From NCBI GenBank assembly GCA_950295325.1, contig OX485808.1, positions 16,698,527 through 16,762,526 on the forward strand: DNA of 64,000 nucleotides. Direction: 5' to 3'. Source of the stretch: Polytrichum commune. Taxonomy: Eukaryota; Streptophyta; Polytrichopsida; Polytrichales; Polytrichaceae. The notes beneath the pieces are model-generated. The model was not told where the DNA came from. It worked only from the letters and a program-made list of their open reading frames with translations, and searched no databases. A program made the translations under genes and the position numbers. Positions 1-56,645 of this stretch are shown here, piece by piece (within the stretch, counting starts at the first letter, position 1; every line of letters starts with the position of its first letter).

Positions 1-1389
1 TTTTTTTGAAAGGGGTGAGGTGGTATTGTGGGTTATTGTATTTGTAGTGATATGGTGTGTGTTTGTATGTTTTCTTATTGTTTTTCGTGTTTGATATGGT
101 TTTTGTTTTGTATATGTGTGTTTTGTATTTTGGATGTGTCCTTTGGTTCTGTTTGTTTGTTTCTTGTGTTTGTCCGTAGGATTTATGTTTAATTTCGGTA
201 AGGTTTTATATGTATAATGAAGTTTGTATTGTTGTTGAGGTCTATATTTTGTGTGTGGCATTGAGTTTGGGTGGGGTTTGTATTTTGGATGTGTGTAGTA
301 TATTGTTTGAGTGTTGCCTTTGTGTGTGTGTATAGTAAGGTAGTTGTACTTGTGTTTTATATGGTATTTTGGGTATTGTAGGATATCACGCTTAGTATGA
401 TAATATCTAGATTTAAAGAGTGTGGGCTTTGTTGTAGGTGTGTATATGGTACTAGGGTGTTGTTGGGTTTCTTTGTTGTTTGATGGTATATCTTTTATTG
501 CATAAGAGGTGTATTGTGGTTGTAGGGCAGTGTAGATATTTGTATTATAGGAATACAAAAGGATTTCTAATCTCATAGGGGATATAGTAATTGGGTTGAT
601 GTGTCTTTGTTGGTAAGGGGTGTTGGGTGGTTTATGTCTTGTTATGTTAGCTGTGGTTTTGGTTTTTTGGTATATTTTTGTTTTGTTGATCTTTTCTTTT
701 ATCTTTTTTTGTTTTTTGTTTTCTTTATTGGCGAGGCCGGTAGGCCGAGCTCGTTCTAGTTTATTACGGTTTTTGTTAATTTTTAACATGGAGGTTGAGT
801 ATTTTACGTGGTATTTGTGTTTTGGGTTGTAGTATAGTTTTGGGTGGGTTTTGAGGTTTGGGCAAGGTGTGTTTGGTTTAGTGATATCTATTTTTTGATA
901 TTTTGTGAATATATATTTGGTTGTGGTGGAAGGGTTAGTTGTGGCGGGTGTTATGTTTCTTACTTGTTTGGGTAAGTATATGTATTTTGGATGTGTTTTG
1001 TATGTTGGGTGGGGTTTGTATTTTTGGTGGAGTTTATATGTTTGGCGAGGATTGTATTTTGGGTGTAATATGTATTTTGTGTGGGTTTGTATTTTGGGTG
1101 TGTATATTGTTTCGTTTGAGTTCTGTCTTTGTGCATGCGTGAAGTAAAGTAATTGTATTTATATTTCATATGGTATCATGGCTGGTATGATGGTATCTTT
1201 TATGATAGAATACGGACTTCGTTGTAGGTGTGTGTATGATGTTTGGGTGTGGTCGGGTTTTTGTTTTATTTATTCTTTGGTTTTTTATAATTATGTTTTT
1301 GGTTATAGTGAAAGGGTTAGTTTTGGCGGGTGATATGCTTTTTATTTGTTTGAGTAGGAAGTATGTGTATTTTGGATTAATTGTATGGT

Positions 1390-2465: not shown

Positions 2466-2476
2466 CAACATTTGCA
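2466..2476. repeat. LINE-1 target site duplication, 3' side
   Basis: CAACATTTGCA (plus strand) occurs here and again at 16227-16237. The flanking LINE-0 ORF1 reading frame is continuous if the intervening 13.75 kb and one copy are removed (codons for S-A-N-V-E-C-L). Confidence 0.88.
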
Positions 2477-2490
2477 ATAATAACAACTTC

Positions 2491-2507
2491 GGTCTCCGAA
2501 GGAGACC
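2491..2507 (-). other. Conserved 3'-end hairpin of LINE-1
   Basis: The minus strand reads GGTCTCC-TTC-GGAGACC, a perfect 7-bp stem with a 3-nt loop, followed by GAAGTT and a short ATT-rich tail up to the target duplication. The preceding bases (GATCGAACAGACACTT then ATTCACGTC) and the hairpin recur at the 3' end of LINE-2 (56612-56628). A conserved terminal stem-loop is a known recognition feature for the reverse transcriptase of several LINE clades; that role here is inference. Confidence 0.8.
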
Positions 2508-5500
2508 GACGTGAATTAAGTGTCTGTTCGATCTACCTTCAATCCCAAGCCCACAGGACAGAGGTATGAAGGAGAAGATCTACTCCCCCCTTTCGAGAGT
2601 AGACACTTTAGACACAAGAAACCAGTAATGTAACCTACGCCTAATATAATACCCTTTGCCCCTTACCCTAACTTTTAAGTTCTGAGTTATGGGGGGTCTG
2701 GATTTTGGGGGAGTGGTTGGTGGTTTTCAATTCTCCTTTTATGGAGGAGAATATACATAGCATATTGTATTGCAATGGTGTTAATATTTTTGAAAGTATT
2801 TTTGATGGTGGCCATAGGTATTTTGAAGTTGGTCTCTAGTGCTTTCATAGATGGGATGTGGGCAGTCGCTCTGGCATCAGCAGTGATAACAATAAGTGGT
2901 TCGATTTTCCATCCTTTGGAAGCAATGCTAGCAATTAGTGAGTTGTATTTATTATTTTTTGCTTCAATTGCTTCTGGGGAGAATCTGTCATTGCAGTATG
3001 TGAATTCAATGAATTGTATGGTAAGGTGAGGGTCGACATCTCTGGGAGGGGCATTTTGATAGGGTAGTCCTTTAACACAGAGGATATCAAGTCTAAATCT
3101 TGCGTTGCAGTGACATCTTTGTGTACTACATGTGCAGGGGAGTAGCCAATTGGGGACTGTGTTTTCTTGGGGGTTGTTATTGAAGGTGCCAGCATTCATG
3201 AGAGTAAAGCATCGGGATTTTTCTGATGAGATTAGGAGCTTCCTAATTTCTCCGACTGCTTTGTTATGTCTTTTAACTCTAAGTGAGTGTATATGTTGGT
3301 GTTTACATGTAAGTAATACATGTATCCATGTATCTGGTTCATTTGAGTTGCATATGGGGCACGTGATAGTGGGAAATCTTTGGTGGCCAAAAAACATTTG
3401 TTTTCTCGCATTCCCCATGTAGGTTCCTGTGCGGAATTTGATGAGGCATGATTTTTGTTTGTCGGTGATAGCGGGATCTGTCCAGAACTCGTTCGACAAC
3501 TCGTTGTCTATCTCTATGTTTTCTGTCCATTTACAGGTGTTGGGGGTTTGTGTGGCCATGATTGGTAGGTTCTTTTCCCTATCATATTTTTTAATTTGTT
3601 TTTCTAAGAATCCAACTGGGCCTTTGTCCGGAACGTCTTCCATCGAGGCCCATACGTCTTTTTGGTAATAGTAAGGGGTGGCGTGGGCATGTTCGTATGG
3701 GTGGGCGGCAATTTTGTGCTCTAATTCTAATCCTTCTTTTGCTAGTTTGTGTGCTTTTTCATTGCCGTCAATGTTGACGTGTGCTCAAACTTTGTATAGT
3801 GTAATTGGTTGTGTCATTTTTTGAAGAATTTTTACCATGGAGGCTAGTGTGGTTTGGTCTGGGTGACTATTATGAAGTGTGGGGTGTTTAATTTGAGTGT
3901 TAAGTAGGTATAATACATTTAGACTGTCTGTGAATATGAATGCGGGTTCGTTGGGATATTGTGTGTTGATGATGCTTAGTGTTTCGTGTATAGCAATCAT
4001 TTCTGCTCGTAATATGTTTTGATGTCCATGTAATCTATTGGCGATGTTTAGCCCTTTGGGGCTGTAGATACCGTATCCGGCTCTTTCTCTTCTCCATTCC
4101 CCAGGGGCTATTTCTTTGGGTTTCATAAAGGAGCCATCAGTGTAGTAGCTGAATTGGGGGTGGAATTTTAGTGGTAGGTTCGTTTGGTAGTTTGGGAGTT
4201 GTGGGGTGGGGGTGTTATTGTTTGGGGGTATCTTTGGGTAATTTGATTTAGACCATTTTTTACTAGAGTTCACTGTGATGTTTGAAGGGGTGGATGGTGC
4301 AATTTGGGTGTGGCTTTGTAATATTTGGAGATTGTCTGCTATGTCCTTTAGTAATTTCATTTGTTTATAGGTGCCTATATTATTGTTTTGGTGGTGGATA
4401 CAAAATATTTGTAGGGTAGACGGTTCTTTTCTTGTAATATTGAGTTCGGGAGGTATTGTGGGTTCTTCATATGCAATCGTATCGGCTGCAAATTGGGCAA
4501 TGATGTGTGTGTCCAAGAATGAACCTATGTGCGGGTTTGGGTTTTTGTACCAGTCGGTATCCGGAGATATAAGTATAGTGATTGTATATGGATCATTTTG
4601 GGCCGCCATGCGAGCCCAGTGAATGGCTTGTTGTAAGTCTGTTGCGTTGTGGGGGTGAGCGTATCCTTTTCCTTGCCATTTGTGGTCGAATGCTTTCCCT
4701 AAGGATCCAAATATTATGTCCCGTGAGAATGGCGAGTAGAATTGGGTGAGTTGCGTGGGGCATGTCACTGGGGATGAGAAGTATGACTGGTTGATATTGA
4801 ATGTGGTTATTAGGAGATCTAATATTGGGGTTGGTATTGTGTATTGGGCACGTTTGAGTGGGTCATTTTTCGGGATTCGGTATTTGTATCTTTGATATAG
4901 CCAAACCATTTCGGTTTCGAAAGATTGGGTGGGCGGTTCTAGACCATGTGTGGTATTTTTTGCCAATTGGTATTGTTTCCATAACCACATTAGTCTGGTT
5001 TTCGGGATGGTGATGAGGTGCCTACCATTATCTTCGTATATGTGAGCGACGTTGAATTGTATTTGGATAGTATCGGAGTTGGTTTCGATGTCATTTTTTG
5101 GGTTACATTCATTAATAAAGATATGTGCTAGTGGGATTATTGTGGTAGGTATGACATATCTTGTGTCTCTTTGTTGTTCGGTGGAGAAGTAGGCATTAAT
5201 AATGTTTGAGAAGTGTTTGTGTTGTCTTTCCGTGTAGTAGTGGGTAAGTAGGACGGTGTTGTGGTTGCATGTGTTGGCATCACAATAGGGGTATAGGTCC
5301 CTTGGGGTTTGCCATTTGTTGCATGTGTGGTTATTTGTTGTAGTCCATTGACATAGGTATGACGTGACTGTTCTTTTTATTCCGTTATGGTCGGTAGATT
5401 GTTTTTGTTTGTGATCAAGTATTTTGTATATGGGATATTGTCGGGGGTCCTTAAGTATGTTGTTGGGGGGAGGGGGTAGAGGGGGGATGGGAGGGTTTGG

Positions 5501-8500
5501 GGGGTGTATGGGGGGAGTCGGTAGGTGAGGTAGAATGTTGTGGTGTCTTAGTATATATTTGTCTTTGAGGGATCTGGGTGGATGGTGTCGTTGGCATGGT
5601 AGGGGGCATTCGGGATTACAGAGAGGTTGGCAAAATAGTTGATTAACGATGTTTAGTGCACTTTGGATGAGTTTGGAAGGGGTGGAGTGGTAGATTTTGA
5701 ATTCGTATAGGTTCATTAGTGTGGTGCCATTAGGCATGGTAATTTGGTCTAGTGTTGTTATATTATGTATGAGCAATTTGTGTAATAGCTTAAGTGAGGT
5801 GTTGGGATTTAGACCCTGTAGCATTTGTGCTTCTTGCATCCACGCGTTTTCGAGTGGGGATGGGTGTAGGAGGAAGTTGTTTATTGTACTTTTAAGGTGG
5901 ACTCCTGCTTCATGCTTGAGCAGAAATAATGTTATAGTAATAGGTGATCTAATACAATGGTAGTATTTAATACGGGTAATTTCTTTAGAACCTCCGTATT
6001 TGGCAAGTATAAATTGCGTTAGGCCGGTATAAATTTTGCCAATTCGGCCTTTATCGTTAAGGGCGTTTTGTAGTTGCTCTCCAATACACCGTAGGTAGGC
6101 ATTTTGTAGTGAAAATGCTTCAATTCCAAATAGGTTGTGGGGGAGTTGTGTAGTAATATTAGATGTGCATTTGGGTATTCCGCATATTGTTTTATGGAGT
6201 GCGATGATCTTTTTGTCAAGTTTTTTTATGGCTGGTATGGAGTATAGTACTGCATAAAAGCTATATGCTATTCCAGCGCGTATGACTGTATCAGCCATGT
6301 TGATTTTTTGTTTCATAGTAGTTGGGCATGCTACGAGGGCTTGATATTGTTTGATTACTTTAGCTGTAGTGGTATTTATTTGTGTTTTCCACTTAAGTGA
6401 TGGTGCGAAATTTATTCCTAGGTATGTGTAGGGTTCGTGTTGGTTTAGGACTGGTATAGGTTGGTTTCTATAGTTTATGTTGGTGGATTGGATTAGGGCC
6501 TTGAAGGTTGTGGGATTAAGTTTAGATTTATTTGGGCATCCAGTTACTGCGCATTTTGGTATTCCTAGATCCATTCCTGCCCATTTGCAGAATTTGTCTA
6601 GTTTATGTAATTGTGTTTGTAGTGTCTCTAGTTTGTTGGCGATTGCTGCAAGGTCGTCTGCATATGCTACTGATGAGATTTTAACTCTCGACGTACCGAA
6701 AGTATATCCATTGTTTCCTTGTTGTAGCCATCTAAGTAGGGGTTGTAGAAATATGATGAATAAGTATGGGCTAAGGGTATCGCCTTGTATTGTACCTCTT
6801 TGGATGTGAATTGGTAGGGTTTTTCCAAAGTGTTCGCCAGCGAATATGGTTGAAGATTGTGAGTATATGTTTCCTATGAGGTTTATTGAGTCATTGGGGT
6901 AACCCAAGTCTTTCATTATGGCTAAGAGTCTGGCGTGGTCAATGGAGCCAAAGGCGTTTTTGAAGTCAATGTAAAGAATGTATATATCTTGGTTTGTGAG
7001 TCTTGCGTCTTCAAGCACTGCAATTAGTATTTGGAATTGTCTGGAGGTGCTTCTTTCTGCTCTGAACCCTTCTTGGCTATCGTGTAGTATTTGGTATCTT
7101 TCTCCGTATGCTGATAGGATAGAGGTTAGTGTACTTGTGTAAAGTTTATATATGGTGTTAGCAAGTGCAATAGGTCTGTGATTCGTTAGTTGTGATTTAT
7201 TACCTTTTTTATATAATAAAACTGTTAGGCTAGTTTTCTATGATGCGGGAATTTGTTTTTGTTTATAGCAGTGCTTAAAGAATAGGAAAAATAATTTGTG
7301 AAAGCGCGGAGGCATATTTTTTAGGATTGAGTTGGGAATTTTGTCTGGACCTGGAGCTTTGTTATTACTCAGGTTTTTAAGACAGAAGTCATAGGTTTCT
7401 TGATCAAAATATGTGTGTAAGGGGATTTGGGGTTCGTCTCGTTTGTCAATTATGTATCCTTCTAAGTCGTGCCATTGGTATTGTCTGACTCCACATGTAC
7501 AGTGTAGTGGATGTGTATTTTGATGGTGGCATGTGGGGACTGTTGGGCGGTTACTGATGGATTGTTGTGCGTAAATCTCTGATGCAATGTCTTCAGGGTT
7601 GGTTAATATGTTGTTTTGTCTATCAATGATGGAGTCAAGAGGTGAGGTTTCAGTGTTTTTGAAGACTTTTTGGTTTATTTTCTTGGGGCTTTTTTCATAC
7701 ATTTGGCGGTATTTCGATACGGCTTTTAGAATGCAGTCTCTAGTATATTTTGTGGTGATTTTTCTGGCTTTTTTATTTGCAGTTTTTGCGATGGCCGCTA
7801 TTGTGTTAATCCATTCATCAGGGGATGCTGCTATAGCGGGTGGGTACGGAATGCTGACGTGTTGGTGGTTTCGGATATCGTTTAGGATGGAGTGCACTTG
7901 CCAGCGTGGATCATGTTGTGCTATGTAAATGGCTTTCCTGATGAGGTGATATGTGTTGAGGTATCTTTTCCATTCTCTAGCTAGTTTACGTGGTAGAAAA
8001 CCACCTTGTTGCGATGTTCTGGTTGTAAGGTTGGGTAGTGGGTTTGCTTTGCAGGTTTTTTCAATTGTTTCTGAGATTTTGTTTATAATGTAGTCCAGTG
8101 ATGTACATACAAGTTGCCATTGATCAGATGTTAAGTGTTGGTGGTTTTCTAATAGTGTGGTAAGTATTTTAAGTTGGGTGGAGTTTTCTTCAAAGAATGT
8201 TATGTTGAATTTTTCTAGGTTTTCAGGTGGTATCGGGTTCAGTATTATAGTTGGTGAGGTGTTTGTAGGGGGTGGGGGTCTGGCTATAAGTGTGTTGTGT
8301 GGGATGTGTAATGTGACTGGATAGTGATCTGAATTTAGATTCATGTTTGTGTTTGTAGTAGAGGTAAATTTGTTGTTGTCTGGGAAGTGAATATAGAAAC
8401 AATCTATTAGGCTTGTTGATGTGTAGTTGTATCCACCTTGTCTGGAGATACTAGTGTTGGTTTGAATATATTCTAAGTTGAGAGATGTGGTGAAGTTTTT

Positions 8501-9712
8501 CCATTGGAAGTCTTCTTCTTGTGGGGGGGTGTTAGTGCTGTTATTTTGTCTGCCCCTGAGTGCAATATCTCTGTTAAAGTCTCCGCATAGTGTGTATATG
8601 TGATTAGGGTGTATAGTGATTTGGTTAGTGATTTCATTCTTAAGGTGTGGGATAAGACATGTGTTTTCTAAGTGCGTGGGAATATACATGTGTATGATTA
8701 GCCAAGGTATTAGTGGGTGGTTATTTATTTTTATTATTTGTAGATATGGGAAGATGTTTGCTGGTGTGGGGATTTTTGTGACATTCCCTGGGAATGCATA
8801 TTTACAATGGATAAATGTAAGTAGGCCACCTCTTCCGGGGGTATAAGGCATCATTTGTTGGATGCACCTTGTGAGTGCGTGTGTGTTGTTGAAAATGAGT
8901 TTGAATTCCGGGAATAGGTTTTGTATATATTTCGTAGATTTGTTTGCAGTAAGTTTGGTTTCTTGGATATGTATGATTGCTGTGTTGTTTTGAGAGTTGT
9001 TTATTAAGCTTTGTAAGTCTGGTAATGATGTGTTGAGTGATGACGCATTCCAAGTTATTATGATTGTTTCATGTTCGGTGTTGGTGTTTATTCTTGTGAT
9101 TGGTGTGGGAGCGGCTGGGAGTGGGGGTGGGTGTGAATATTCGCTGATGTTTTCTAAACATCTAAGTGTTTCAGCTATCAACTAGTTTGGGAGGAAAGGG
9201 AATTATTTCTTAAGGGCGGTTGATGTGGGTGTGGTTACTTGGTTGTGGATGAATTCGTATATTTTTGTGTGTATTGAATTTTGAGGGAGTATTATATGTT
9301 GATTGTTTTCTATGAATGTTGTGTAGGGGTGCGGTGTCAGTATGTGTCGCTCGGGGGGGTTGGTGAGGTTAGCTAGCCTAATGATTAACGTGTTGGTCCA
9401 TATGTTATTAAAGTGGTAGTTTTGGGGTTGGACTAGCATGTTATTGCATATGTCTATTGCGGGGTGGATGGTAATAATTAGGGCGTATAGCATATGGGTT
9501 GGTGGCGACTGGTTTTGTGTTTGGGTATAATGGTGTAGATGTGGGTATGTGGTGATTGCTTGGAGGTGTAGTGGGTGTGTGTGTTTTAGGATAGGGGCGA
9601 ATGTATTTGCTAGGTGTTGGTATTCAGGTTGTAGTTTTATAGTATTTGGGATAAAATACGTGTTGGCTCTTTTTTTGCGTGTAATAGGGTGTGTTCGTAG
9701 AATATCAGGCAT

Positions 9713-9775
9713 TGGTCCCGGGTTAAGTTCGATATCTCCGCATTTTAGTAGATCTAGTATGTCAATGAAGTAATA
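9713..9775 (-). other. 2A-like ribosome-skipping motif in LINE-1
   Basis: The minus strand encodes YYFIDILDLL then KCGDIELNPGP, directly followed by Met-Pro. It fits the 2A consensus D-(V/I)-E-x-N-P-G-P with an upstream hydrophobic, Leu-rich stretch. In known 2A peptides the ribosome fails to join Gly to the final Pro, releasing the upstream protein and continuing translation. Here that would separate a roughly 100-residue leader from the endonuclease-RT protein. 2A-like motifs are established in several animal and trypanosome non-LTR elements. Function here is inferred from sequence. Confidence 0.82.
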
Positions 9776-10012
9776 TCCGTAGAATTGAAGTGTTTTTGGT
9801 TTTCTCATATTTATTTTAAGATATTTCAAACATGTGAATTTGGTTGTGGAAAAGAGGTTAGGCATAGCGGGAGTGGTTTTTTCTACTAGTTCGGGTGAGA
9901 AGTGTGACGTTGCATTGTTTGTAGGTAGTGGGTTTGTTACTGAGTTAGGTTTCCAATTTTTTATGAAGTGGTATGTGTTATTTATGTGGCGAGGCCGGTA
10001 GGCCGAGGCCAT
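9776..10012 (-). other. Leader module 4 (ORF2-proximal, linked to 2A)
   Basis: Starts at ATG 10012 with MASAYRPRH, has a central NWKP motif, then a stretch of the type P.LFSTTKFTCLKY and a Lys-rich segment leading into the 2A motif. The start lies on a GC-rich, partly self-complementary DNA segment (GAGGCCGGTAGGCCGAGGCC on the plus strand) that stands out in otherwise A/C-rich DNA. The homologous LINE-2 leader reads TASASRPRH, with ATG changed to ACG. Upstream sequence back to 10129 is in the same frame but consists of the HPK-type spacer repeat, so I favour ATG 10012 as the start. Confidence 0.65.
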
Positions 10013-10779
10013 TTTGTTATTTGGGTAGGGATTGTATTTTGAATATGGGTGTTTATGTTTTTGGTAGGGTTTGTATTTAGGGTGTAGGTGGTGTTTGGAG
10101 TGGGGGTAAGGTGTGGGGTTTAGGTACAAGTTGTATGTAGGGTGAGGCTTGTGAGATTTTGAGTTGGATTGGGTTTCTTGTTTTGGTTGGTACCAATACG
10201 GTTGTTGGTATTTGTGTTTTGGGTATATTTTGGCTTTTGGATGAAGTATATGTTTTAGGTGGACTCTATGGTTTGGATGAAGCTTATCCCTTGGATGAAG
10301 ATTGTGCTTTTGGTGAGGGCTATATCTTGGATGAGAATAGTATTGTGGGTGGGACCGAGGTATTTTTTGTTTTGGGTAGGAATCTTGTTGTGGGGGGGGG
10401 GGGGTGTTATATTTCCTAATTGATTGGGTGAAGGGCGTGTTTTGTTTGTTTTTAGGTTTTTCATGCTTATGGTTTTAATTATGGTAATCGGGTTGGGTGG
10501 GGTGTGTGTGATGTTACTAGGTTGTTTAGGTGCGAGGGAAGGTTTAGGTTTTGGTTGTGTATTGTGTTTAGGATGTAAACTATGCTTTGGATGTGGTTTG
10601 AGTTTAGGGTGGAATCTATTTTTTGATGAGTACTTGTATTGTGAGAGAGGCCGTTGTATTTTTTGTTTTGGATGGGTGGTAAAATTTGGGTGTGTAGGGT
10701 GTTGTGCTCGGGGGTTGTATTTTGTGTAGTTGTTAGTGTAATTTGGTACATTTATAAGTTTAATATTTGATGTACTTGA

Positions 10780-11031
10780 GATAGTAGGGAAGTATCTATA
10801 TAGGTTAGTTGTTTTTGGTTGTGTCTTACTTGGTTTTTGATTTTTGATGAATGTTAGTTTTGTTGTAGAGGGGATGTGGTGTAGGGTGGGTATTATGTTT
10901 TCTTGTTGTTTAGATAAGGGGCGTGTGTTCACATAGTATTTAGGTACTTGATTTGTTACTAAGGTAGGTTTCCAATTGGTGAGGTGATTTTTTCGGTTAG
11001 TTTTGTGGCGAGGCCGGTAGGCCGAGGCCAT
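10780..11031 (-). repeat. Leader module 3 (no 2A)
   Basis: ATG at 11031 encodes MASAYRPRHKTN, a NWKP motif and the segment P.STTKLTFIKN...KTTNLYRYF, paralleling the ORF2-proximal leader up to the point where that one enters the 2A motif. Here the sequence becomes Ser/Thr-Asn rich and has no NPGP. The palindromic GC-rich start segment is conserved. The lower boundary is approximate. Confidence 0.65.
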
Positions 11032-11569
11032 TTTGTTTGTTGGGTGTTGTTTGTATTTTGAGTAGGGGTATGGTTGTGAGTGGGGGTAGAGTACGGATTT
11101 TTGTCGGGGTTTATGTTTAGGATGTAGTCTATTTTGTTGGCATGCTTTTAGGTTAGGGTAGGTTCCTTGTTCATGATGTGGGTTATGTTTTGGATGAGAT
11201 ATATGTGTTGAGTGGCTTATGTGTTTTGGATGGGATCCATATCTTGGATGAAGGTAGTTCATTGGGTGTGGTATGTGTTTTGGGTACTTTCCGTAATTCA
11301 GGGCGTGTGTAATGTTACTTGATTGTTTAGATGTGAGGGGGGGATTTAGTTGTGGGTGTGGCCTATATTTTGGATGCGGTTTGGATGTAGGATGAAGTTC
11401 GTTTCTTGTGAGGTACCTACATTGTGAGTGAGGCCGTTGTATTTTGTGTTTTGGATGAGAAGTATAGTTTGGATGTGTGGTGTGTTTTGTTCGGAGAGTA
11501 TGTTTTGGGTTGTTGTTGTGTGAGTGGTTAGTGTAATTTGGTTTGTTTATAGATATTTGATTTACTTTT

Positions 11570-11817
11570 GTTGTACTTGAGGTAGAGGGGTAGTATTTAT
11601 GTAGGTTAGTTGTTTTGATTTTTGGTATTTTAATGAGTGCGCGGTTAGTTTTAGAGGAGGTGTGATGTAGGGCAAGTATTATGTTTCTTGTTGTTTGGTT
11701 AAGGGGTATGCGTTTGCATCGTGTTTAGATATTTGGTTTGTTATTGGGGTAGGTTTCCAATTAGTGAGGTGGAGTTTGCGGTTAGTTTTATGGCGAGGCC
11801 GGTAGGCCGAGGCCATT
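11570..11817 (-). repeat. Leader module 2 (no 2A, interrupted)
   Basis: ATG at 11817 encodes MASAYRPRHKTNRKLHL, a NWKP motif and Thr-Lys-Gln-Gln-Glu-Thr, after which the frame closes near 11679 although related sequence continues to about 11570. No NPGP is present. The start segment matches the modules at 11031 and 10012 nearly base for base. Confidence 0.6.
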
Positions 11818-11899
11818 TTGTTTGTTGAGTATTGTTTGTACTTTGGGTGTGAATGATGTTTAGGATGTAATTTATTGTCTTTAGGGATGTACGTTGTTA

Positions 11900-12191
11900 T
11901 TGTGCGAGGTTTTTGATGCGTACTTGATATACTTGATGTAATGAGGTAGTATTTATATAAGTTGAGTATCTTTGGTTTTTTCTTATTTGGTTTTTGATAT
12001 TTGGTGAGTGCAAGTTTTGTTATGGGAGGGATATTGGGTAGGGTGGGTATAATGTTTTTTGGTTGTTTGGGTACGGAGTGTAATTTTGCATGGTTTGTTG
12101 GTATTTGAATTGTTATTGAGTGAGGTTTCCAATTATTTATGAAGTGATGTTGGCCATTAGGATTGTGGTAAGGCCGGTAGGCCGATGCCAT
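11900..12191 (-). repeat. Leader module 1 (most upstream, no 2A)
   Basis: ATG at 12191 encodes MASAYRPYHNPNGQ, then NWKP, a PPITKLALTKYQKP segment and KILNLYKYYLITSS, a close counterpart of the pre-2A segment of the ORF2-proximal module, but with no NPGP. The start segment is slightly diverged (AAGGCCGGTAGGCCGATGCC on the plus strand). Confidence 0.65.
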
Positions 12192-12889
12192 TTTGCTTTT
12201 TGGGTGTCTTTTGTGATTGAAATAGGAGTTAGGGTTTGAGAGGGGACAGGGTTTGGGGTTTAGATGTGGGTTGTGTTTAGAGTGAAGTTTATTTTGTAGG
12301 TGTGGTTTTGAGTTGGGATGTGTTGCTTGTTTTGGGTGTGAACTATGTTTTGGATGAAATATGCGTTTTAGATGACATCCGTTCGTTGGATGGAGTATGC
12401 ATTTTGGGCACTTACCGTATTTCGTATGGAGATTGTTTTTTGAATGAGGTGGGAGGTATTTTGAGTTGAGGGTATGCTTTGTGTGACCATTGTACGTTGA
12501 ATGGTAGTACTTTCTATGTTTGTTGTTTTGTATGTGGGGATTGTATTTTGGTTTGAGTATTGGGTATGTAGTTTTTTGTTGTATATTGTATTTATTCGGG
12601 TATATGAGACATATTTTGTATTTGTATTCCATATGGTTTTTTGGGTGTTGTAGAATACCTTCTTTGTTGTTATGGTATTTTGTAGTTATTCTAGTATATG
12701 TTTCATGTATATGTCTATATATGTATATATGTATATGGTAGTATTGTGATAAATACTTTTTTATTTCTTGGCGGTTTGTGGTCAATCCACATTTGGTTGG
12801 TCCTTTAGCATAAGGTTTGGTTTAACCACACCCGTAATTTGTTGCATTCCCGTAAGTGCCAAAGTCAAGGTGCTTTGGATGTCCATCAT

Positions 12890-14587
12890 CTATTTTTTGA
12901 GTTTATCGTTTATTTCATCCGCATAGATGTGTGCTTCTCTTACTATGTCATCTTTTAACTCCTTCATATCCTTGTGGAGTTCAAGTTTGAGTTTTTTGTT
13001 ACCTTCCTCAATGGCCTCTTTCATGACGGTAAGAACATCCCCCTTTGTTGTACTTTCTTCTCCTTGTGTTTGGTTTTGGATGGCTTCAATTGTGTTTACC
13101 AAACACGTATTAGTATCTTCAAAACCAAATTTGGTTAGTAGCTCTTTGGGGGGTTTGTCATTACCATCTAGGCTACGGCGGTGTGGGGTAATTTCCACAT
13201 GGTAGGCCCCAATTTTTGCTTCTTTACCCACAAACTTCCTATACACAAAGGGGTTGAGGCATTCCACATTGGCACTCCCATTGTGTCTCAAGCCATCTTG
13301 CTTGTGGAACCAAATGGATACCACATTTTTGGTTCCTAGTACCTTGCAAATTTCAAGGGAGGTGTCTTCAATATTCATCAAAATGGGGAGGTTGTAGAAA
13401 GTTAGGGTAAGAGCCTCTTTCCTTGCCTTTTGCTCCATAGTAAGAGAGGGGCCCTTTGTTACTTGCCCATCAAGAATTTGGTGGTGTGTGGATATTTGGA
13501 GGGTTTGTATTTTCTTAGCTTGTAGGGGGGTAGGAGCAACAATGTAGGCATGGTTGTTAGCGGTGGTCTTTTGTACTTCTACAATTTCAAAGTTATGACC
13601 TCTTCTAAAGCTATTTTCAAGGATATCAAGAAAGAGAGCATGAGATGTCAATCCTACTAGAGTGTCATTTGAAATTTTGATGGAGAGGTTGTTATTCCTA
13701 GCAATGGAGTGATATGATTTACATACCTTGCCTAGGCTTCCAACATTTGAGTGGGGCTCAAGGTGGAGAATGAAGGGTCTAAGACCCGTGAGTAAGGCTA
13801 CTCCATCGGTTTGGGGGTGAAGGAGGTGGAGTTTGACTATCCCAGCCCAAACGCCCTTAACCCCTCCTCTCTTGATACTCATGCATAGAACCGAGATAGG
13901 TTCGATGAGGTTAGTACCTAGTGGAATGTGCATGTCATTTAGCCTCTCTTTAACAAGCTCTTTGACATGGTTATGAAATAGGGGGTTGTTGGGGAGTTGA
14001 AAATGAATGGCAATTTGAAAGTCTAAGGACATGCAAGAGATGGGGTCAGTTTCTATCTCTGATGGGAGTTGAGTGAGGTTAAGATGTTGACCCGGTAATC
14101 CATCACTTCTCTCACTTGGGTACAAAGTTTGTGGCACTCTTGGGTATGAAATGCTTACACTCTCTAATTCCTCGGCTTCCTTACGGGGGATGCCTCTTGT
14201 GGTTCTATCAGCAATGGTTTCATCATTAAATAACTCATCAATTCCTTGTTCAATTGCAAGTTTTTCCATGACTTCAAATCCTAACCATAATTTGAGTTTT
14301 GGGTCTGATGTGGGCTCTGTGGCATGAACTACATTGCGGGGAGAAATCACCTTGTGGGAATTCGAGGGTGAGGATGTCCCGGCCCGGTCTCTAGCTCTCT
14401 TCCCATTGGCTGCAGCTCGGGCATTTGTTTTGGCCTTCTCTGCAAGGAGTTTCTTTAGGCTCTGAGTAGGCGAGTCAATCTCCATTATGTCTTCCTCGTC
14501 ACCAAAAACCTTTGCTAGGGTTTTCGGAATCAGGTCCCTTCCCTCCATGTTGTTGTTGTCTCGGGGAGGGGCTCTTGACGCGGCCAT
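12890..14587 (-). pseudogene. LINE-1 ORF1 (nucleocapsid-like protein), 3'-truncated by TAG
   Basis: The start at ATG 14587 was chosen because it parallels the ATG at 17502 in LINE-0: both read M-A, then an acidic segment (GDEEDIMEID versus GDDDNMEVD), then LLAEKA. The frame is open further upstream to 15724 through a repeat array. The product is about 565 residues: basic low-complexity N-terminus; a long conserved region (HLNLTQ, HNHVKELV, GTNLIEPIS, GLRPFIL, ARNNNLSIKI, FRRGH.FEIVEVQK); a segment with RRM-like spacing (LTLTFYNLPI and NGSANVEC as possible RNP2 and RNP1); ITPHRRSLDG; C-terminal coiled-coil-like helix. A TAG at 12890 replaces the Gln that continues the LINE-0 protein, removing about 34 residues. 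RNA binding is the expected role of ORF1 proteins; the RRM assignment is inference. Confidence 0.75.
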
Positions 14588-14639
14588 CTCAGCTAAGTTT
14601 GGGCTTCGGGGTCTGCTTCTGCTTGTGGGATCTGCAAGG

Positions 14640-15480
14640 TCGGGGCTGTGTGTGCTCTGGTACCGCTCTCCTTTCTCTGGTTCGGTGCAGTCACAGGTGT
14701 TTCGGTGTTGCTCACTTCCCCGAGTACAATGTGTATGAGATCTGCCTGTACTGCTAGGGATTACTCCGCCTCTTCTCCAGCTCCACTCGTTGTCTCGGTG
14801 TAGAATGTAGCCTCTGTTTCGGTGATGGGTTTGTTGCCCAGTGAGCTCGGTGCCAGATTCGGTGTAATCGCAGGTTGTCTGATCTTCCCGAATATGTGTA
14901 TGAGATCTGCTTGTACTGCTAGGGATTACTCCGCCTCTTCTCCAGCTCCACTCGTTGTCTTGGTGTAGAATGTAGCCTCTGTTTCGGTGATGGGTTTGTT
15001 GCCCAGTGAGCTCGGTGCTAGATTCGGTGTAATCGCAGGTTGTCTGATCTTCCCGAATACAATGTGTATGAGATTTGCCTGTATTGCTAGGGATTACTCC
15101 ACCTCTTCTCCAGCTCCACTCGTTGTCTCGATGTAGAATGTAGCCTCTGTTTCGGTGATGGGTTTGTTGCCTAGTGAGCTCGGTGCCAGATTCGGTGTAA
15201 TCGCAGGTTGTATGATCTGCAAGGTCAGGGCTGTGGGTGCTCAGGTACCGCTCTCCTTGCTCTGGTGCGGTGCACTCACAGGTGATTCGGTGTTGCTCAC
15301 CTTCCCGAATACAATGTGTATGAGATCTGCCTGTATTGCTAGGGATTACTCCACTTCTTCTCCAGCTCCACTCGTTGTCTCGGTGATGGGTTTGTTGTCC
15401 AGTGAGCTTGGTGCCAAATTCGGTGTAATCGCAGGTTTTCTGATGCTGCTCTACTCTCTGATTGCAGTGTGTGCGAGATC
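14640..15480 (-). repeat. Tandem repeats of about 165 bp in LINE-1 5' region
   Basis: Units recur at about 14731, 14896, 15064 and 15316, with a partial unit near 15467, giving spacings of about 165, 168 and 252 bp. Each contains GTGTATGAGATCTGCCTGTA and several TCGGTG motifs. On the minus strand they are read as repeated GYILH.DNEWSWRRGGV and TCDYTESGTELTGQQTHH segments in frame with ORF1 (open from 15724). Tandem units upstream of a LINE ORF1 resemble promoter monomers of other LINEs; whether they are translated or regulatory is open. TCGGTG motifs are also abundant in the array upstream of LINE-0 ORF1. Confidence 0.7.
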
Positions 15481-15724
15481 TGCCTATTTTGTTGTGGGTT
15501 ACTCCTCTTCTGCGTATGTCTCGATGTGGGGCGTCGTCTTCTTTGTAATCTCCTTGGATTTCTTCTACGACACCCTTTCTGCAACCTCTTCCGCCTTCTG
15601 CAACGATCCCTTCTTGCGCTCCACTATCTTGGGTCGATGGTTCTCCCACCAGTGGATCGGGCTTGTAACAAGGGTTTAGTTCTAGATCTAGGGGACATGC
15701 ATCTATGCTATGTTTGAAAAGCAA

Positions 15725-28840: not shown

Positions 28841-28855
28841 AGGTGTAATGTCTGC

Positions 28856-45878: not shown

Positions 45879-46434
45879 GTAAGACTTCTCAGCCCTCCTC
45901 TTAAGCACACAATTAGACACTTAGAGCACACACTTAATTAACAAACAAACTCTCTTGATTTCATAGTTGACACACACATAGGCACTTAGAAGCACACACA
46001 TAAGACTAGTTAAGCACACAACACTTGTAATTTATTAGAAGTAGTAGTAGTTGCACCTAGTAATAGGCACATAGAATTGTTAGTTATTGTTAGGTTAGAT
46101 TAAAAATGAAGGTTGCAACCGCATCATGCCTTGTTCTCATGTGGTTGCTCATTACCACACTATATTGGAACAACTCTCACAGCGTCCTCTCTCACACTCT
46201 ATGGAAATGTTATGCACAAGCATGTTTTACTGCTATAGCTACATTTAAAGGAACATCTAACGGAATTGCATGGTATTTTGTAAATGATAGTAAGCAACAC
46301 ACACACATAAATAATAACATCTTCCTAATACCCCCCCTACAAAGCCCACTTATTTATAAGTGGAAAGGGAATGGGTTGAGGAGCAAAGAAAATGTATCGA
46401 AAACATGCAATAACAACATACTTTACTTTTGCAG
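45879..46434 (+). other. Possible intron before LINE-2 ORF1
   Basis: A strong donor (CCAG|GTAAGA at 45879) and a strong acceptor (CTTTACTTTTGCAG at 46434) enclose 556 bp. The acceptor is followed at once by A-ATG, the ATG at 46436 starting MTYARSLEK. The open frame upstream of this ATG (from 46106) has no counterpart in the other ORF1 copies. Confidence 0.5.
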
Positions 46435-46435
46435 A

Positions 46436-48049
46436 ATGACATATGCTCGTAGTCTTGAAAAGTCATTGGATGGGGTAAAAGATATGGAAGTAACTCAAAC
46501 AAAAAAGAGGACATCAAGTAATGCATGCCTAACTATTGTTGATAAAACTAAAAATCGGTCTAGCACACAAGGAAAATCCCTTCCGTTGTGGCTTGGATTC
46601 AAAGCAATGAATGCTTTGAATGCAAGCAACAAACTAGCAAAAGAAAACCATAAGAGTGTTAGTGAGCTAGTCAAAATGGGCATGTATGAAGGAGAAGCAC
46701 TAGAATGCCAGGATATTGTTGTCTCATACCCGTATGTACCTCAAGAATTATGGCCTAGTATGAACAACCTAGGTAAACAAAACTATCATCACACACAAAT
46801 TCCTTCAGAGATAGAAACTTGTGATGGCTTTGCAATGGATTACCACGTAGCTTTATTCTTTGAGTTAGATGAGATGATTATTCCCAAAGAAGAAGCACTT
46901 ATAAGCATCACCAAGAGGATGAATGAAATGAGAATCCCTCTAGGTGATGATATAAGTGACCCAATTGCTATAATGTGCACACATGGAGGCAAGCAATGGT
47001 CGGGACAAGCTAAAATACATTTAAAAAATATACAAGAAGACGGTATTCCCATGCTTCAAGGACTTAGGCCATTTATTATCCGGCTCCCGGATAATAAATT
47101 GCACAGGGGTAAAATTTGTAAGTCTTACGACACCATTGCCTCAAGCGAGATGTTATCAGTCAAAATTACCACTGATAGCATCAAAGATGAGACATGGTAC
47201 AAAGTATTTGATGAAGTGGTAAATGAAGGATTTCATAGAGGGCACAATTTTGAAATTATCCATGTGCGAAAAGGGGAAAGTCACAACTTTGCTTGGATCG
47301 TTGCAACTAGCCCGGAACAAGTAGAAAATATAAGAAAGAACAAAATAACATTCGGGCATGAAAGCATTGATGTTACGATAGGAAAACCCTCGGGCGACGA
47401 CTTAGCTAAAAAGAATGCACTCATCCTCATTGCAAAAAATTTAAATATATTAAAACCTAAAGAGGTCATTGAAACCGAAATAAGGGCACGCATGGGTGAG
47501 AAAAACGTCTTAAACATCTTCTTCAAAACGGATGACAAAGGCAAACTCACCGGTGTATACAATGTGCAATGCTTAAGTATGGCGGTCTATAAATTTTTTG
47601 TAAAAAAGAATCATAAAATATGTAATAAATATGTCGAATTTGCTCCTCACCCAAAAAGCTTAGATGGAATATCTAAACCTTCGGGAGAGGAGCTTATACG
47701 ACTAGGCTTTAACAATATGAACACCGCCTTAGCAAACACCGTAGAAGCCATGGAAAATGCCCCATCCAATGGACTAAGAAAGAAAGACATACACCAAATG
47801 GTTGAGGAAGCTGTGGCCAAAGGGACCGCTATAGTGAGAGATGAGATGCAAACCATGGAGACTCGCTTAACAAGCCAAACGAAAAACTTTGCAACATACG
47901 CGGCAGAAAAGGCAGCTAGGGCACTCAAAAAAGAGATGGCCACACTCCGACAAGCCCTCACCAAAACCATGGCAGCCTTGGACTCCTCAGAAATGCTCGA
48001 CAAAGAATATTCATCAAGCGACAAAGAAGATTTAATGGCGATAAACTAA
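46436..48049 (+). CDS. LINE-2 ORF1
   Basis: From ATG 46436 the protein has 537 residues. The frame is open back to 46106, but I prefer 46436 because homology to the other ORF1s begins after it and a splice acceptor precedes it. It shares with LINE-0/1 the order LWLGF.AM, VSYP.VPQ, H.TQIPSEIE, MRIPLG, DPIAIMC, GLRPFI.RL, CKSYDTIA, SVKIT, GFHRGHNFEI, ..VA..P.Q, a segment NVQCLSMAVYKFFV and APHPKSLDGISKP, then a C-terminal coiled-coil-like tail with Lys/Ala-rich helices. No zinc knuckle. Overall it is diverged but collinear, and unlike LINE-1 the frame is intact. Likely an RNA-binding nucleocapsid-type protein. Confidence 0.78.
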   Translation: MTYARSLEKSLDGVKDMEVTQTKKRTSSNACLTIVDKTKNRSSTQGKSLPLWLGFKAMNALNASNKLAKENHKSVSELVKMGMYEGEALECQDIVVSYPYVPQELWPSMNNLGKQNYHHTQIPSEIETCDGFAMDYHVALFFELDEMIIPKEEALISITKRMNEMRIPLGDDISDPIAIMCTHGGKQWSGQAKIHLKNIQEDGIPMLQGLRPFIIRLPDNKLHRGKICKSYDTIASSEMLSVKITTDSIKDETWYKVFDEVVNEGFHRGHNFEIIHVRKGESHNFAWIVATSPEQVENIRKNKITFGHESIDVTIGKPSGDDLAKKNALILIAKNLNILKPKEVIETEIRARMGEKNVLNIFFKTDDKGKLTGVYNVQCLSMAVYKFFVKKNHKICNKYVEFAPHPKSLDGISKPSGEELIRLGFNNMNTALANTVEAMENAPSNGLRKKDIHQMVEEAVAKGTAIVRDEMQTMETRLTSQTKNFATYAAEKAARALKKEMATLRQALTKTMAALDSSEMLDKEYSSSDKEDLMAIN

Positions 48050-49040: not shown

Positions 49041-49276
49041 CCTCGGCCTCCCGGCCTCGCCACAAAACTAAAAACAAATACCAATTCACAAACATCTGGA
49101 CACCCAACACAATAACAAATAACGAACCTAAAAGCAACACAAGTACACACTTTCCAACTTTCCAACTAGCAAACATAATACCCGCCTTACCTAACCTATT
49201 TACTACAACTAAGTTCATACTCAATAAATATCAAAAAATACATAAGAAAAAACCAAAATTACTTCAACTCCACGGA
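49041..49276 (+). other. LINE-2 leader module before 2A
   Basis: CGGCCTCGGCCTCCCGGCCT encodes, in phase with the 2A motif, TASASRPRHKTK; the initiating ATG of LINE-1 is ACG here. It is followed by IWTP in the place of NWKP and by PALPNLFTTTKFI, collinear with the LINE-1 leader. Confidence 0.7.
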
Positions 49277-49342
49277 TACTACTTCATCAATAAATTAACA
49301 TTATTACAATGCGGAGGAGATATAGAACCTAACCCCGGACCA
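49277..49342 (+). other. 2A-like ribosome-skipping motif in LINE-2
   Basis: Encodes YYFINKLTLL then QCGGDIEPNPGP, followed by Met-Pro-Asp-Ile-Leu as in LINE-1. The D-I-E-x-N-P-G-P core is kept although neighbouring residues have changed (one Gly inserted, L to P at the variable position). Confidence 0.82.
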
Positions 49343-52300
49343 ATGCCTGATATCCTACGCACACACCCTGCTACACATAAAATGAGACCCAAAACATATT
49401 TTATCCCAAACACAATAAAATTACAACCAGAGTACCAACACATAGCAAACACGTTCGCTCCCATACTAAAACGGAATCACCCACTACATCACCAAACAAC
49501 CATCATATATCCACACCTACATCAATACATCCTAACACAAAGTCATTCCCAATCAACTCATATACTATATACTTTAGTCATTACAATAAACCCCTTAATA
49601 GACACATGTAACAACATATTAGCCCAACCCCGCATGTACCACTTTAACGACATATGGACCAACACACTAATCATTAGACTGGCCAACCTTAACAACCCTC
49701 CCGAGTGACACATTCTAACACAACACCCATACACAACATTTGTTGAAAATAACCAAGATATAATACACCCCAAAAATTCTATACATACCGAATTATATAA
49801 ATTTATACACAACCAAGAGACTCCACCTACACTAACCACACTCCAAAGGAAATTCTTCTTTCTCCCTGTAAAACTGATTACCGAGTCACTCCGGTGCTTA
49901 GAAAACATAGATGAATACTCACATCCACCTCCACTTCCAAACATCCCCACACCAGCCCCAAGAACAATTACAAACTCTAACCACGAAACAAATATAATAA
50001 CATGGAATGCCTCGTCACTTAAAACAGCCTTACCAAACCTACAAAGCTTAATAAACCATTCCTTTAGCAACATAGCGATTATAAATATCCAAGAAACCAA
50101 ACTCACAGCAACTAAATCCACTAAATACATTCAAAATCAATTCCCTGAATACAAGCTCATTTTTAACAACACACACGCCCTCACAAGATGCATATAACAA
50201 AGAATGCCTTACACCCCCGGTAGAGGTGGTCTTCTCACACTTATTCATAACAAATACGCATTTTCTGGAAATGTTATCAAGATACCCACACCAGCAAATA
50301 TCTCCCCTTATCTACAAATAATAAAAATACACAACAATCCACTCCTGCCATGGATAATCATACATATGTATATGCCCACACACGTAGATGACACCCACCT
50401 CATTCCCTACCTCAAACCACAATCACCAACCAAATAACTGCGCACCCAAACCACACGCACATTTTATGTAGATATTTTAATAAAGATATTGCACTTACCG
50501 GAGGACAAAATAACAACAATCACACGGTACCACAAGAGGACGACATCCAATGGAAAAACTTCACTACAACCCTAAATCTAGAATATATTCCAACAAACAC
50601 TAACTTTTCAAGACAAGGAGGTTATAATTACACGTCAACCAGCCTTATAGACGGTTTCTATATCAACTCACCAGATAACAACAGATTCGCCTTTACAACA
50701 ATCACAAACATAAATCTAAACTCAGACCACTATCCAGTCACCTTACACATACCCCAAAACTTACTTATTGCTAGACCACCACCCCCCGCAAATATTACAC
50801 CAACTAGAATACTAAATCCAATCCCGCCGGAAAACTTAGAGAAATTTAATATAGAATTTTTTGAAGCAAATACCACGCAAGTAAACGAACTAACCATCCT
50901 ACTAGAAAATCACAACAACCTCACCCCTGATCAATGGCAAGAAGCTTGTACAGCATTAGACAACATTGTAGAAAAAATTTCAGTTATCATTGAAAAAACC
51001 TGCAAAGCAGCCCCAATACCAACCCTTACAAATAGAACAGCTCAGCAAGGTGGCTTCCTACCACGAAAACTATCCAAAGAATGGAAACGACACCTCGACA
51101 CATACCATCTTATTAGAAAAACAATATATATTGCAAGAAACAACCCACACTGGCAAACTCATCCCATTTTAAATGAAATCCGTAACCACCAACATGTGCA
51201 AATTCCACATCCACCTACAACAACCACTCTCCCAAATGAATGGATTGACACCATAGCCGCTATCGCAAAAACCTCCAATAAAGAAGCCAGAAAAATCACC
51301 ACAAAATACACCAAACAATGTATTCTAAAAGCCGTATCAAAATACCGCCAAATGTATGAAAAAAGTCCCAAAAAGATAAATAGGAAAGTCTTTAAGCACT
51401 CCGAAACCTCACCCCTCGACTCCATCACGGATAGACAAAATAACATATTAACCAATCCTGAAGATATTGCAAAAGAAATATACATTCAACAATCCATCAG
51501 TTATCGGCCAACAGTATCCACATGCTACTACCATAACATTCACCCACCACATTGCACATGTGGCGTTAGGCAATATCCATGGCATGACTTAGAAGAATTC
51601 ACGATTAAACAACGGAGAGAACCCCAAATCCCCCTACACACATACTTTGACCAAGAAACATACGACTTCTGCCTCAAAAACCTAGGAAATAATAAAGCCC
51701 CAGGACCAGACAAAATTCCTAATTCAATCATAAAGAATATGCCTCCACGTTTCCACAAGCTACTCTTTCTATTCTTTAAACACTGCTACAAACAAAAACA
51801 AATCCCCGCATCCTGGAAAACTAGTTTAACGGTTTTACTATACAAGAAAGGTGATCCATCACTACTTACTTACCATAGACCTATTGCACTAGCTAACACC
51901 ATATACAAATTATACATAAGCACATTAACCTCTATTCTCTCAGCTTATGGTGAAAGACACCAAATACTGCATGATAGCCAAGAAGGATTCAGAGCAGAAC
52001 GAGGAACATCTAGACAACTTCAACTCCTCATTGCAGCATTAGAAGACGCAAGATTTACGAACCAAAATATATATATCCTCTACATTGATTTCAAAAACGC
52101 TTTCGGTTCCATTGATCATGCAAGACTCTTAGCCATAATGAAAGACCTTGGATACCCAATAGATGCAATAAATCTTATCGGAAATATATACATACAATCC
52201 ACTACTATATATCTTGGAGAATACTTCGGCAAAACCCTACCCATCCCCATTCAAAGAGGTACAATACAAGGAGATACTCTCAGCCCTTACTTATTTTTAA

Positions 52301-55300: not shown

Positions 55301-56368
55301 CAGACAAATTGGCAAAAGAAGGGCTAGAACTAGAGCACAAAATTGCCATTCACCCATATGAACATGCCCATGCCACCCCATACTACTACCAAAAGGACGT
55401 TTGGGCCTCAATGACGGACGTTCCTGATAAAGGCCCCGTTAGATTCCTAGAAAAACAAATTATTAAATACGATAGGGAAAACAACTTGGAAAGCATGGCC
55501 ACACAAACCCCCAACACTTACAAATGGACAGGAAATGCAGATATAGACAAAGAACTTTCTAACGAATTCTGGGAAAACCCGGAAATCACGGATAAACAAA
55601 AATCATGCCTCATCAAATTCCGAACAGGAACCTATATGGGCAATGCTCGAAAACAATTGTTCTTCGGTAGACAATCATATCCCTCTATTACATGCCCCAT
55701 TTGCAACTCATACGAACCGGACACGTGGTTACATGTACTACTTATGTGTAAACAACAACATATACATTCACTTCACGTCAAAAGACACAACAAAGCTGTA
55801 TGGGAAATTAGGAAATTACTAATCTCATCTGAAAAATCTCGATGTTATATTCTCATGAACGCTGGCACCTTCAATAATACATCCCAGGAAAACACCGTTC
55901 CCAATTGGCTACTCCCTTGCACATGCGGTACACAAAGATGTCATTGTAACTCCAGAGTTAGACCTGACATCCTTTGTGTTAGAGGATTACCGTACCAACA
56001 TGACCCCCCCCACAGACATGGACCCCAACCTCACCATACAATTCATCGAATTCGCATACTGTAATGATAGATTCTCTCCAGAAACACTCGAAGCAAAAAA
56101 TAACAAATATAAACCATTAATTGATAGTATCGTTGCTAGAGGATGGAAAGTTGATCCCCTTATTATAATCACCGCAGGCACTAGAGCCACTACACACATT
56201 CCTTCAATGAAATCACTCGAAAATAAATTTAAAATACCTATGCCTATCATTAAAAATACTTTTAAAAACATCAATACTATCGCTATTAAGTATGCCATGT
56301 CTATCCTCCTACACAAAAGAAGAATAGAAAACCACCAACCCCTGCCCCAAACACTAGACCCCCCATAG
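49343..56368 (+). pseudogene. LINE-2 ORF2: APE-RT-RNase H-zinc finger, broken
   Basis: After the 2A motif: MPDILRTHP segment; APE endonuclease with ITWNASSL and IQETKLTA (about 50000-50770, several stops and at least one phase change); RT from 51196 in a long frame with NNKAPGPDKIPNS, IDFKNAFGSIDHA, GTIQGDTLSPYLF and YADDLAAI (52390); linker; RNase H with YYTDGSFMKP, AEMIAIHE and HININGNEQADKLA (54900-55330); zinc-finger region CPICN..C (55693) and CTCGTQRCHC. In-frame stops include TAA at 53470 and at 54898 (Gln to stop, CAA to TAA against LINE-1). A phase change occurs in a C-run near 56007. The RT domain is unbroken. Confidence 0.9.
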
Positions 56369-56611
56369 ATAAAGCCATAAAACTTTAGTAACTAAGCCAC
56401 TCTACTCCATCCACTAACAAATGCACTAGCGACTTGGCGACCCAAACCATACTAACAATCCCCCCTAAAAACTAACCATTTTGGTTCTTGTTACTAGTAA
56501 CTGGTGACTATAGTGTCTACTCACGAAAGGGAGTAGTAGATCTTTACCTCCATACCTTTGTGCTGTGGGCATCGGATTGGAGGAGGATCGAACAGACACT
56601 TCATTCACGTC

Positions 56612-56628
56612 GGTCTCCTCCGGAGACC
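56612..56628 (+). other. Conserved 3'-end hairpin of LINE-2
   Basis: GGTCTCC-TCC-GGAGACC with the same stem as LINE-1 and a changed loop, followed by GAAGTTTTTCTTCTTCT and the target duplication. The upstream GATCGAACAGACACTT and ATTCACGTC are shared with LINE-1. Confidence 0.82.
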
Positions 56629-56645
56629 GAAGTTTTTCTTCTTCT

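Follow-up and report, generated by a model that had tools for sequence, protein, structure and literature searches.

The question raised by this locus is whether a 2A-like peptide encoded at the head of a LINE open reading frame in the bryophyte Polytrichum commune is a working ribosome-skipping signal. The 2A signal is best known from animal viruses, the ribosome releasing one protein and proceeding to the next, and 2A/StopGo has been widely engineered into plants. A 2026 survey found no plant virus that uses 2A naturally, though 2A works in plants (PMC12846837). The reading preferred here, held at a probability of roughly 0.85 and judged from sequence, is that a functional StopGo/2A stands at the ORF2 head of a Dualen/RandI-like LINE and would free the enzyme from a loosely constrained leader. 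The whole stretch of 64,000 nucleotides that was analysed is termed the window; it lies in G000:C6 of the 408-Mb assembly that was searched.

Position and reading of the motif

By translation of the ORF, LLKCGDIELNPGP was located on the minus strand at 9751-9713, in frame with LINE ORF2. Its octapeptide (9736-9713) conforms to the core (D/G/C/N)(V/I)ExNPGP given for StopGo/2A, ahead of which L-rich upstream motifs end in (A/S/C)G before D (PMC12846837, accessible part). The minus-strand ORF 10129..9203 reads ...GYYFIDILDLLKCGDIELNPGPMPDI, with MPDI directly after LLKCGDIELNPGP, and the match was right in coordinates and reading as originally predicted. The 2A/StopGo-like peptide GYYFIDILDLLKCGDIELNPGP occupies 9713..9778 (minus strand), and the break is predicted between Gly and the final Pro (9715-9713). 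Upstream of it the leader, from MASAYRPRH to the 2A (9779..10012, minus strand), is weakly constrained, and its Met is not conserved between subfamilies. Downstream follows the post-2A domain, MPDILRTHP...YFIPNTIKLQPEYQHLA... (9203..9712, minus strand), in which a TAA is met within frame in the window copy. The ORF2 frame of this copy extends through EN, RT, RNase H and RLE as far as 2687 and contains three in-frame stops (TAA 9205-9203, TAG 9184-9182 and TAG 7240-7238), so that the full-length protein cannot be made from it. On the plus strand, a second copy encodes the 2A-like peptide GYYFINKLTLLQCGGDIEPNPGP (49274..49342), with LLQCGGDIEPNPGP at 49301-49342, and a third copy of the element lies at G000:C6:16696692-16697591 (minus strand), about 1 kb beyond the window's left edge.

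Element architecture and classification

In the window copy the APE-type endonuclease (8309..9070, minus strand) was recognised by the motifs IITWNASS, QETK, GDFN and SDH, and a Pfam search returned 0 families for the ORF bearing them. On the same strand follow the reverse transcriptase (6407..7360; PF00078, 4.9e-21), broken by the TAG at 7240-7238, PF12237 (PCIF1_WW; 4661..4945; 3.7e-9, over cut-off) between RT and RNase H, RNase H itself (3857..4150; PF00075, 2.5e-5, just below cut-off in this copy) and a CCHC zinc knuckle with a restriction-like endonuclease (RLE; 2984..3361), assigned by motifs and by a C-terminal profile that matches R2. An open genomic copy, L032, has a frame of 2625 codons (P0001) in the order leader, 2A, post-2A domain, APE, RT, PF12237, RNase H and CCHC with R-P-D...E-F-T-Y. 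P0001 gave PF00078 at 2.3e-29, PF12237 at 5.3e-8 and PF00075 at 5e-13; PF03372 was below cut-off in it (0.00088), with the usual APE motifs present, and over cut-off in the relative P0167 (5.4e-6). NPGP had been expected just upstream of the APE endonuclease: it does lie upstream, but does not adjoin it directly, since a post-2A domain of about 210 residues intervenes.

PF12237, at 1871-1964 in P0001, was assigned in 16 of 45 relatives. PCIF1 is a cap-adjacent adenosine methyltransferase, and the domain in these LINEs is possibly an RNA-modifying or derived one.

The identification as LINE-1 in the original prediction had to be given up, since an RLE stands beside the APE in ORF2 and the RT is nearer R2: against PDB, the RT of the open copy matched R2 at 2.6e-29 and LINE-1 ORF2p at 4.5e-15. 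A profile of seven C-termini matched solved R2 proteins at CCHC-RHN and at the RLE end with a best whole-sequence E of 3e-7, the single R2 stretches scoring 0.0053 and 0.023 and four other matches 0.0073-0.025. Plant LINE superfamilies are given as L1 and RTE in the accessible part of a review, and the element resembles them in APE endonuclease, RT and, often, RNase H (PMC9033089); it differs from them in the RLE, the RT nearer R2, the 2A and the lack of poly(A) in two copies. The set of features that marks plant L1 (L1-type RT, no RLE, poly(A) tail) was not found. Because APE, RLE and RNase H are combined in ORF2 and the RT is nearer R2, the element is classed as a Dualen/RandI-like LINE and not L1, by domain layout and R2-type matches. 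With green-algal Dualen/RandI it shares APE and RLE in one ORF2, and RNase H (PMC4640811, PMC3747384), but the host here is a bryophyte, and 2A is not mentioned for those elements in the accessible parts of the two sources. RandI is tabled there under green algae, with non-poly(A) tails (PMC3747384). The Pleodorina starrii protein P0011 falls within the same RT tree as the element's relatives. An APE + RLE LINE is hereby placed in a land plant.

No poly(A) tail was seen in the two copies whose 3' ends were examined, which end in GTTTTTCTTCTTCTTC and GTTGTTATTATT. Both close with the hairpin CGGTCTCC...GGAGACCG and with a short tail of TTC or TTATT, in the minus-strand copy within the 3' untranslated end (2476..2686, approximate bounds) and in the plus-strand copy at about 56491-56643. 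The 3' end of the minus-strand copy directly abuts coding sequence of the ORF1-like kind, as would result from insertion into a different element.

Upstream of the element, an ORF1-like protein (12890..15724, minus strand) was assigned by position, the same order being present in the plus-strand copy and in L031 and L032. Repeat units of about 1 kb, with partly open frames and 18-nt repeats, lie between ORF1 and ORF2 (10013..12889, minus strand); the units at 9940-12785 each have ATGGCCTCGGCCTACCGGCCTCGCCAC and resemble the ORF2 leader at the protein level, and 2A was not seen in them. In the second copy the ORF1-like protein is at 46106..48049 and the broken ORF2, with RT, RNase H and RLE, at 49343..56368 (plus strand, 3' bound approximate), the RPD of its RLE being encoded at 55951-55986. 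Within the ORF1-like frame of the minus strand, a 165-bp tandem repeat was noted at 14719-15218 (three copies, 94% matches). At the start of this frame (15724..12890), DLELNPCYKP at 15682 (minus strand) is like a decayed 2A core and may be chance.

Copies in the genome and control patterns

With back-translated patterns, 273 coding sites for D(I/V/M)ExNPGP and 156 further sites for D(I/V/M)(H/Q)xNPGP were found in the whole genome. The reversed form of each pattern gave 0 sites genome-wide, as did the scrambled order D(I/V/M)ExPNGP, and a chance match was ruled out by these controls. The bryophyte genome holds 429 natural 2A-like sites, and those translated all belong to one LINE group. The 308-aa ORF, used as genome query, gave 128 scored matches from 920 candidates; among the 30 best, which include the window copy and a few near-duplicates, DIExNPGP is kept in 28 and NPGP in 29, the exceptions being L007 (NLGP) and L020 (DIKPNPGP). 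The exact core was present in 44/51 ORF-query matches on C1 and C2 (<64.1 Mb), and both translated ones of the remaining seven read DIKPNPGP (L020, L033). Motif-bearing copies occur on all seven large contigs, which rules out contaminant DNA. The motif stands directly ahead of the same post-2A domain in 30/30 fetched pattern loci, and so it does, wherever this domain is still readable, in 31 additional stretches, which account for 32 of the 70 other sites among those listed and were chosen mostly for non-window families. That ORF2 of a plant LINE carries a conserved 2A-like motif in frame close to its head, as first proposed, was borne out. For the host, contig C8 bears the plastid genes rbcL and accD side by side; accD is nearest to entries labelled Sphagn... 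(93%), Flatbe... (92%) and Pallavicinia (92%), and a 19-row tree groups it with bryophytes at a level above class. The seven large contigs would suit Polytrichaceae, with n=7.

Two samples were drawn without the motif as a requirement. When the genome was queried with only the post-2A domain of family G, 150 matches were scored; from these the first 20 in rank with a query start within 4 residues and no stop were taken, self left out. NPGP was present in 16 of these and the canonical core in 10; six of the 16 read DIH or DIQ, and the four lesioned copies showed NPGA, NLGP, NPGS and a frameshift. Proteins were searched with a 720-residue query from L032 that contained the motif but did not require it, which gave 137 proteins, 120 of them assessable as listed. 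The core, with H/Q at p14 counted, was found in 33/35 environmental proteins with the domain anchor at least 35 residues from the N-terminus, the two exceptions reading NPDP and NLGP, and in at least 16 environmental proteins outside this anchor test (51 of the 120 proteins being judged). Absence of NPGP from all relatives would have marked the motif as fortuitous; it is instead kept across families with unrelated leaders and in 33/35 environmental relatives, and the two controls gave 0 sites. An account by chance match, or by recent copying without selection, is therefore regarded as hardly tenable, even if many copies are closely related, the window copies are broken and near-identical copies show no constraint.

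Gly precedes Asp, at p11, in 90/95 loci (a few copies counted twice, e.g. L019/L048), and the upstream hexapeptides are of a known class: exact LLLLSG (6 loci), LILLSG and xLLKCG fit the L-rich motifs 2/6 with D at p12. Departures at p14 are H and Q in family G, and K in L020, L031 and L033, the K copies speaking against a working 2A; natural p14=H has over 95% activity and E14Q 56% or 26% (PMC12846837, accessible part). The likeness to RNA-virus StopGo/2A comprises the core, Gly p11, Asp p12, an L-rich hexapeptide including LLLLSG, and p14=H (same part of PMC12846837), whereas the carrier here is a plant retrotransposon and copies with p14=Q and K occur. These copies would constitute a natural plant StopGo system rich in native variants (p14 E/H/Q/K) and also offering tandem arrays. 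That no plant LINE is known to have been described with a 2A, as the original prediction put it, agrees with the open-licence PMC literature searched, where none of the titles and abstract openings listed tells of one. Odon et al. reportedly described 2A in 2013 in the trypanosome non-LTR elements L1Tc and Ingi and in animal CR1, L2, Rex1 and Crack. As in those elements, the 2A precedes an APE endonuclease/RT protein in the same frame; unlike them, the present element belongs to an APE + RLE group, has a land-plant host and a kept ORF1, and bears two or three motifs in some copies.

Protein constraint around the motif

dN/dS was calculated by distance from the Asp codon in five family sets of 17, 12, 6, 11 and 4 copies (50). 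Expressed as means over non-independent pairs, without intervals, it was 1.02, 0.98, 0.97 and 0.96 in bins from -480 to -135 nt, 0.46, 0.57 and 0.75 in bins from -135 to -36 nt, 0.52 at -36..-18 (four sets), 0.25 at -18..0, the last six codons ahead of the octamer, 0.04 in the octamer, where it is partly built in for the pattern-chosen families (E-I), and 0.24, 0.15 and 0.31 from +24 to +220. For the ORF-query set, not chosen by exact pattern, the octamer value was 0.07. The fraction of aligned codons that keep a common frame averaged 0.43-0.44 beyond -270, 1.00 from -60 to +60 and then 0.92 and 0.84; at 114-220 it fell to 0.50 in family G and 0.70 in E, the downstream frame often being lost because many copies are decayed. 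Some results fit less well. The window's own set (A-D) keeps the frame from -360 on, with dN/dS of 0.71-0.75 far upstream and 1.36 at -180..-135, a bin in which values spread from 0.46 to 1.77 between sets; in family E a value of 1.20 was obtained at -36..-18. Near-identical group A copies show no downstream constraint (dN/dS 1.81, 0.82, 0.77), and, upstream of the motif, close families have a weak excess at third positions or none. Variable sites in family E, by codon position, numbered 3/3/17 at +24..150 versus 7/11/10 at -120..-36, and family H (3 copies) agrees, with dN/dS of 0.16 at -36..24 versus 1.07 at -90..-36. All four codons are used at P17, G18 and P19, which indicates selection on amino acids; together with the mean dN/dS of 0.25, these free synonymous codons point to selection on the peptide rather than on RNA. 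The rough onset of protein constraint leaves a constrained zone of some 20-45 codons, about the content of the ribosome exit tunnel. Foot-and-mouth disease virus 2A needs more than 30 native residues for full activity (PMC12846837, accessible part).

The motif is reused with unrelated leaders. The families ending ...GYYFINKLELLKCGDIEPNPGP, ...HLLLLLSGDIETNPGP, ...SSKLLLLLCGDIETNPGP and ...YYTWNNSTLILLHGDIELNPGP are without obvious likeness beyond the last 10-20 residues. The defined leader protein of about 100 residues that had been proposed did not hold up, as Thr or Lys replaces the Met of MASAYRPRH in 9/30 best copies (L012, L015, L016, L019, L021, L022, L024, L025, L026) and the leaders of other families are unrelated; a conserved protein of this size was rejected on moderate constraint in families A-D only.

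A rival account, judged improbable, has ORF2 beginning at the Met that in most families comes next to NPGP, with the stretch ahead of it untranslated and NPGP unused. Met does follow NPGP directly in 84/95 loci, the leader Met is lost in the 9 copies listed above, the short upstream frame of L054 is without ATG, and there is little third-position excess upstream within close families. An ORF2 start just after the motif is nevertheless disfavoured by the ...YYTWNNSTLILLHGDIELNPGP family, where the motif is followed mostly by L, sometimes by F, I or S, and not by Met; in family G and relatives the residue there is L, F, I, S or V, yet NPGP is kept in most, and both the octamer and the codons at -18..0 are constrained as protein while their synonymous sites are free. 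Slightly less probable again is a 2A-like stretch that is translated but serves as a hydrophobic signal/anchor or pausing site, the product not being split. A signal or anchor would have no need of the NPGP end, yet this end is retained, and families A-D have lead-ins of only mild hydrophobicity (e.g. GYYFINKLELLKC), although LLLLL lead-ins are present in some families and in sea urchin a 2A also functions as a signal sequence (PMC4981915, accessible part).

Proposed release and entry into ORF2

Under the preferred reading of a functional StopGo/2A, a ribosome entering the ORF2 frame upstream would make a leader that varies in both sequence and length. At ...LL(K/L)(C/S)G-D-I-E-x-N-P-G the bond to the next Pro would fail, the leader would be released and the ribosome would go on. 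As release would occur at NPG with the next Pro first, the endonuclease/RT protein would always begin Pro-Met-Pro-(D/N)-Ile (in family G, Pro-Leu-Ser) no matter where translation had started, and the entry route would become immaterial to the enzyme N-terminus. We infer all three: the release, the entry route into ORF2 and the benefit of a fixed N-terminus. They would offer a simple reason for 2A in retrotransposons, namely a constant enzyme N-terminus with a leader free to change.

The ORF1/ORF2 junctions differ between copies. An ORF2-frame ATG overlaps the ORF1 end in L031 (ATGACTAG), giving a leader of about 556 codons, an arrangement resembling the coupled termination-reinitiation reported for SART1 (accessible part of the review PMC5972666). 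In 5/6 copies of the MDLTN family showing that end, L061 being the exception, and likewise in L032, the ORF1 stop comes about 22 nt after the point where the ORF2 frame opens. Stops lie between ORF1 and ORF2 in L038 and L047, and L054 combines a long downstream frame with an upstream frame of only 27 codons. There seems to be no single ORF2 entry rule, the route appearing to vary among families.

Tandem motifs

Three 2A-like motifs in one open frame were found in L096 (DIQ/DIE/DIH) and L074 (DIQ/DIE/DIY), each open over all 1141 bases; L090 has two, and a stop lies 14 codons upstream of the first of them. For spacing, the first 100 sites among those listed for each of the two patterns were paired on the same strand within 1500 nt: 28/35 neighbouring pairs, or 18/25 distinct spacings, were separated by a multiple of three, a third being expected. 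Two motifs each were also present in the environmental proteins P0199, P0207 and P0243. The module, and not only the motif, is thus duplicated in frame. Whether part of the group thereby has a multi-2A polyprotein ORF2 shedding two or three small leaders, the 2A acting as a portable 'start-site eraser' that would allow leader swap or duplication without harming endonuclease/RT, is judged an even bet. Picornaviruses with several 2A-NPGP copies likewise have several motifs in one polyprotein (PMC11512398, accessible part), but here each motif follows a repeated module of a LINE leader. Upstream in L037, SKDTETNLGPML at about 1170-1243 (match orientation) is perhaps a decayed second 2A.

Related LINE proteins

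Among 45 more distant LINE proteins, a recognisable motif was found in eight (P0010, P0014, P0015, P0018, P0020, P0042, P0026 and P0041); that of P0031, at the start MHPNPGP, is doubtful, and P0002, the nearest of the 45, has none. P0026 and P0041 come from LINEs of the pseudoscorpion Cordylochernes scorpioides and read CIELNPGP; they are an animal example of the known kind. A single gain of 2A was rejected on the relatives' RT tree, where 8 changes are needed and clustering was not beyond shuffles (92/500 as low), in a set in which many proteins may lack the true N-terminus and P0031 was counted as motif-bearing on its doubtful start. No relative was found in the viral contigs scanned with EN/RT. 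Cysteine protease-like domains occur in the giant ORF of some relatives, namely OTU in P0002 (below cut-off), Ulp1 in P0004 and Josephin in P0011, P0013, P0018 and P0037. They are perhaps another route to product processing; an exchange of protease for 2A among relatives is only an idea, and P0018 has both.

Other features of the window

An array of repeats of about 51 bp (TTCGGTGCAGTCGGTACAG...) occupies 24808-25733. On the minus strand, pieces resembling a Ty1/copia polyprotein were recognised by eye at 27026-30301.
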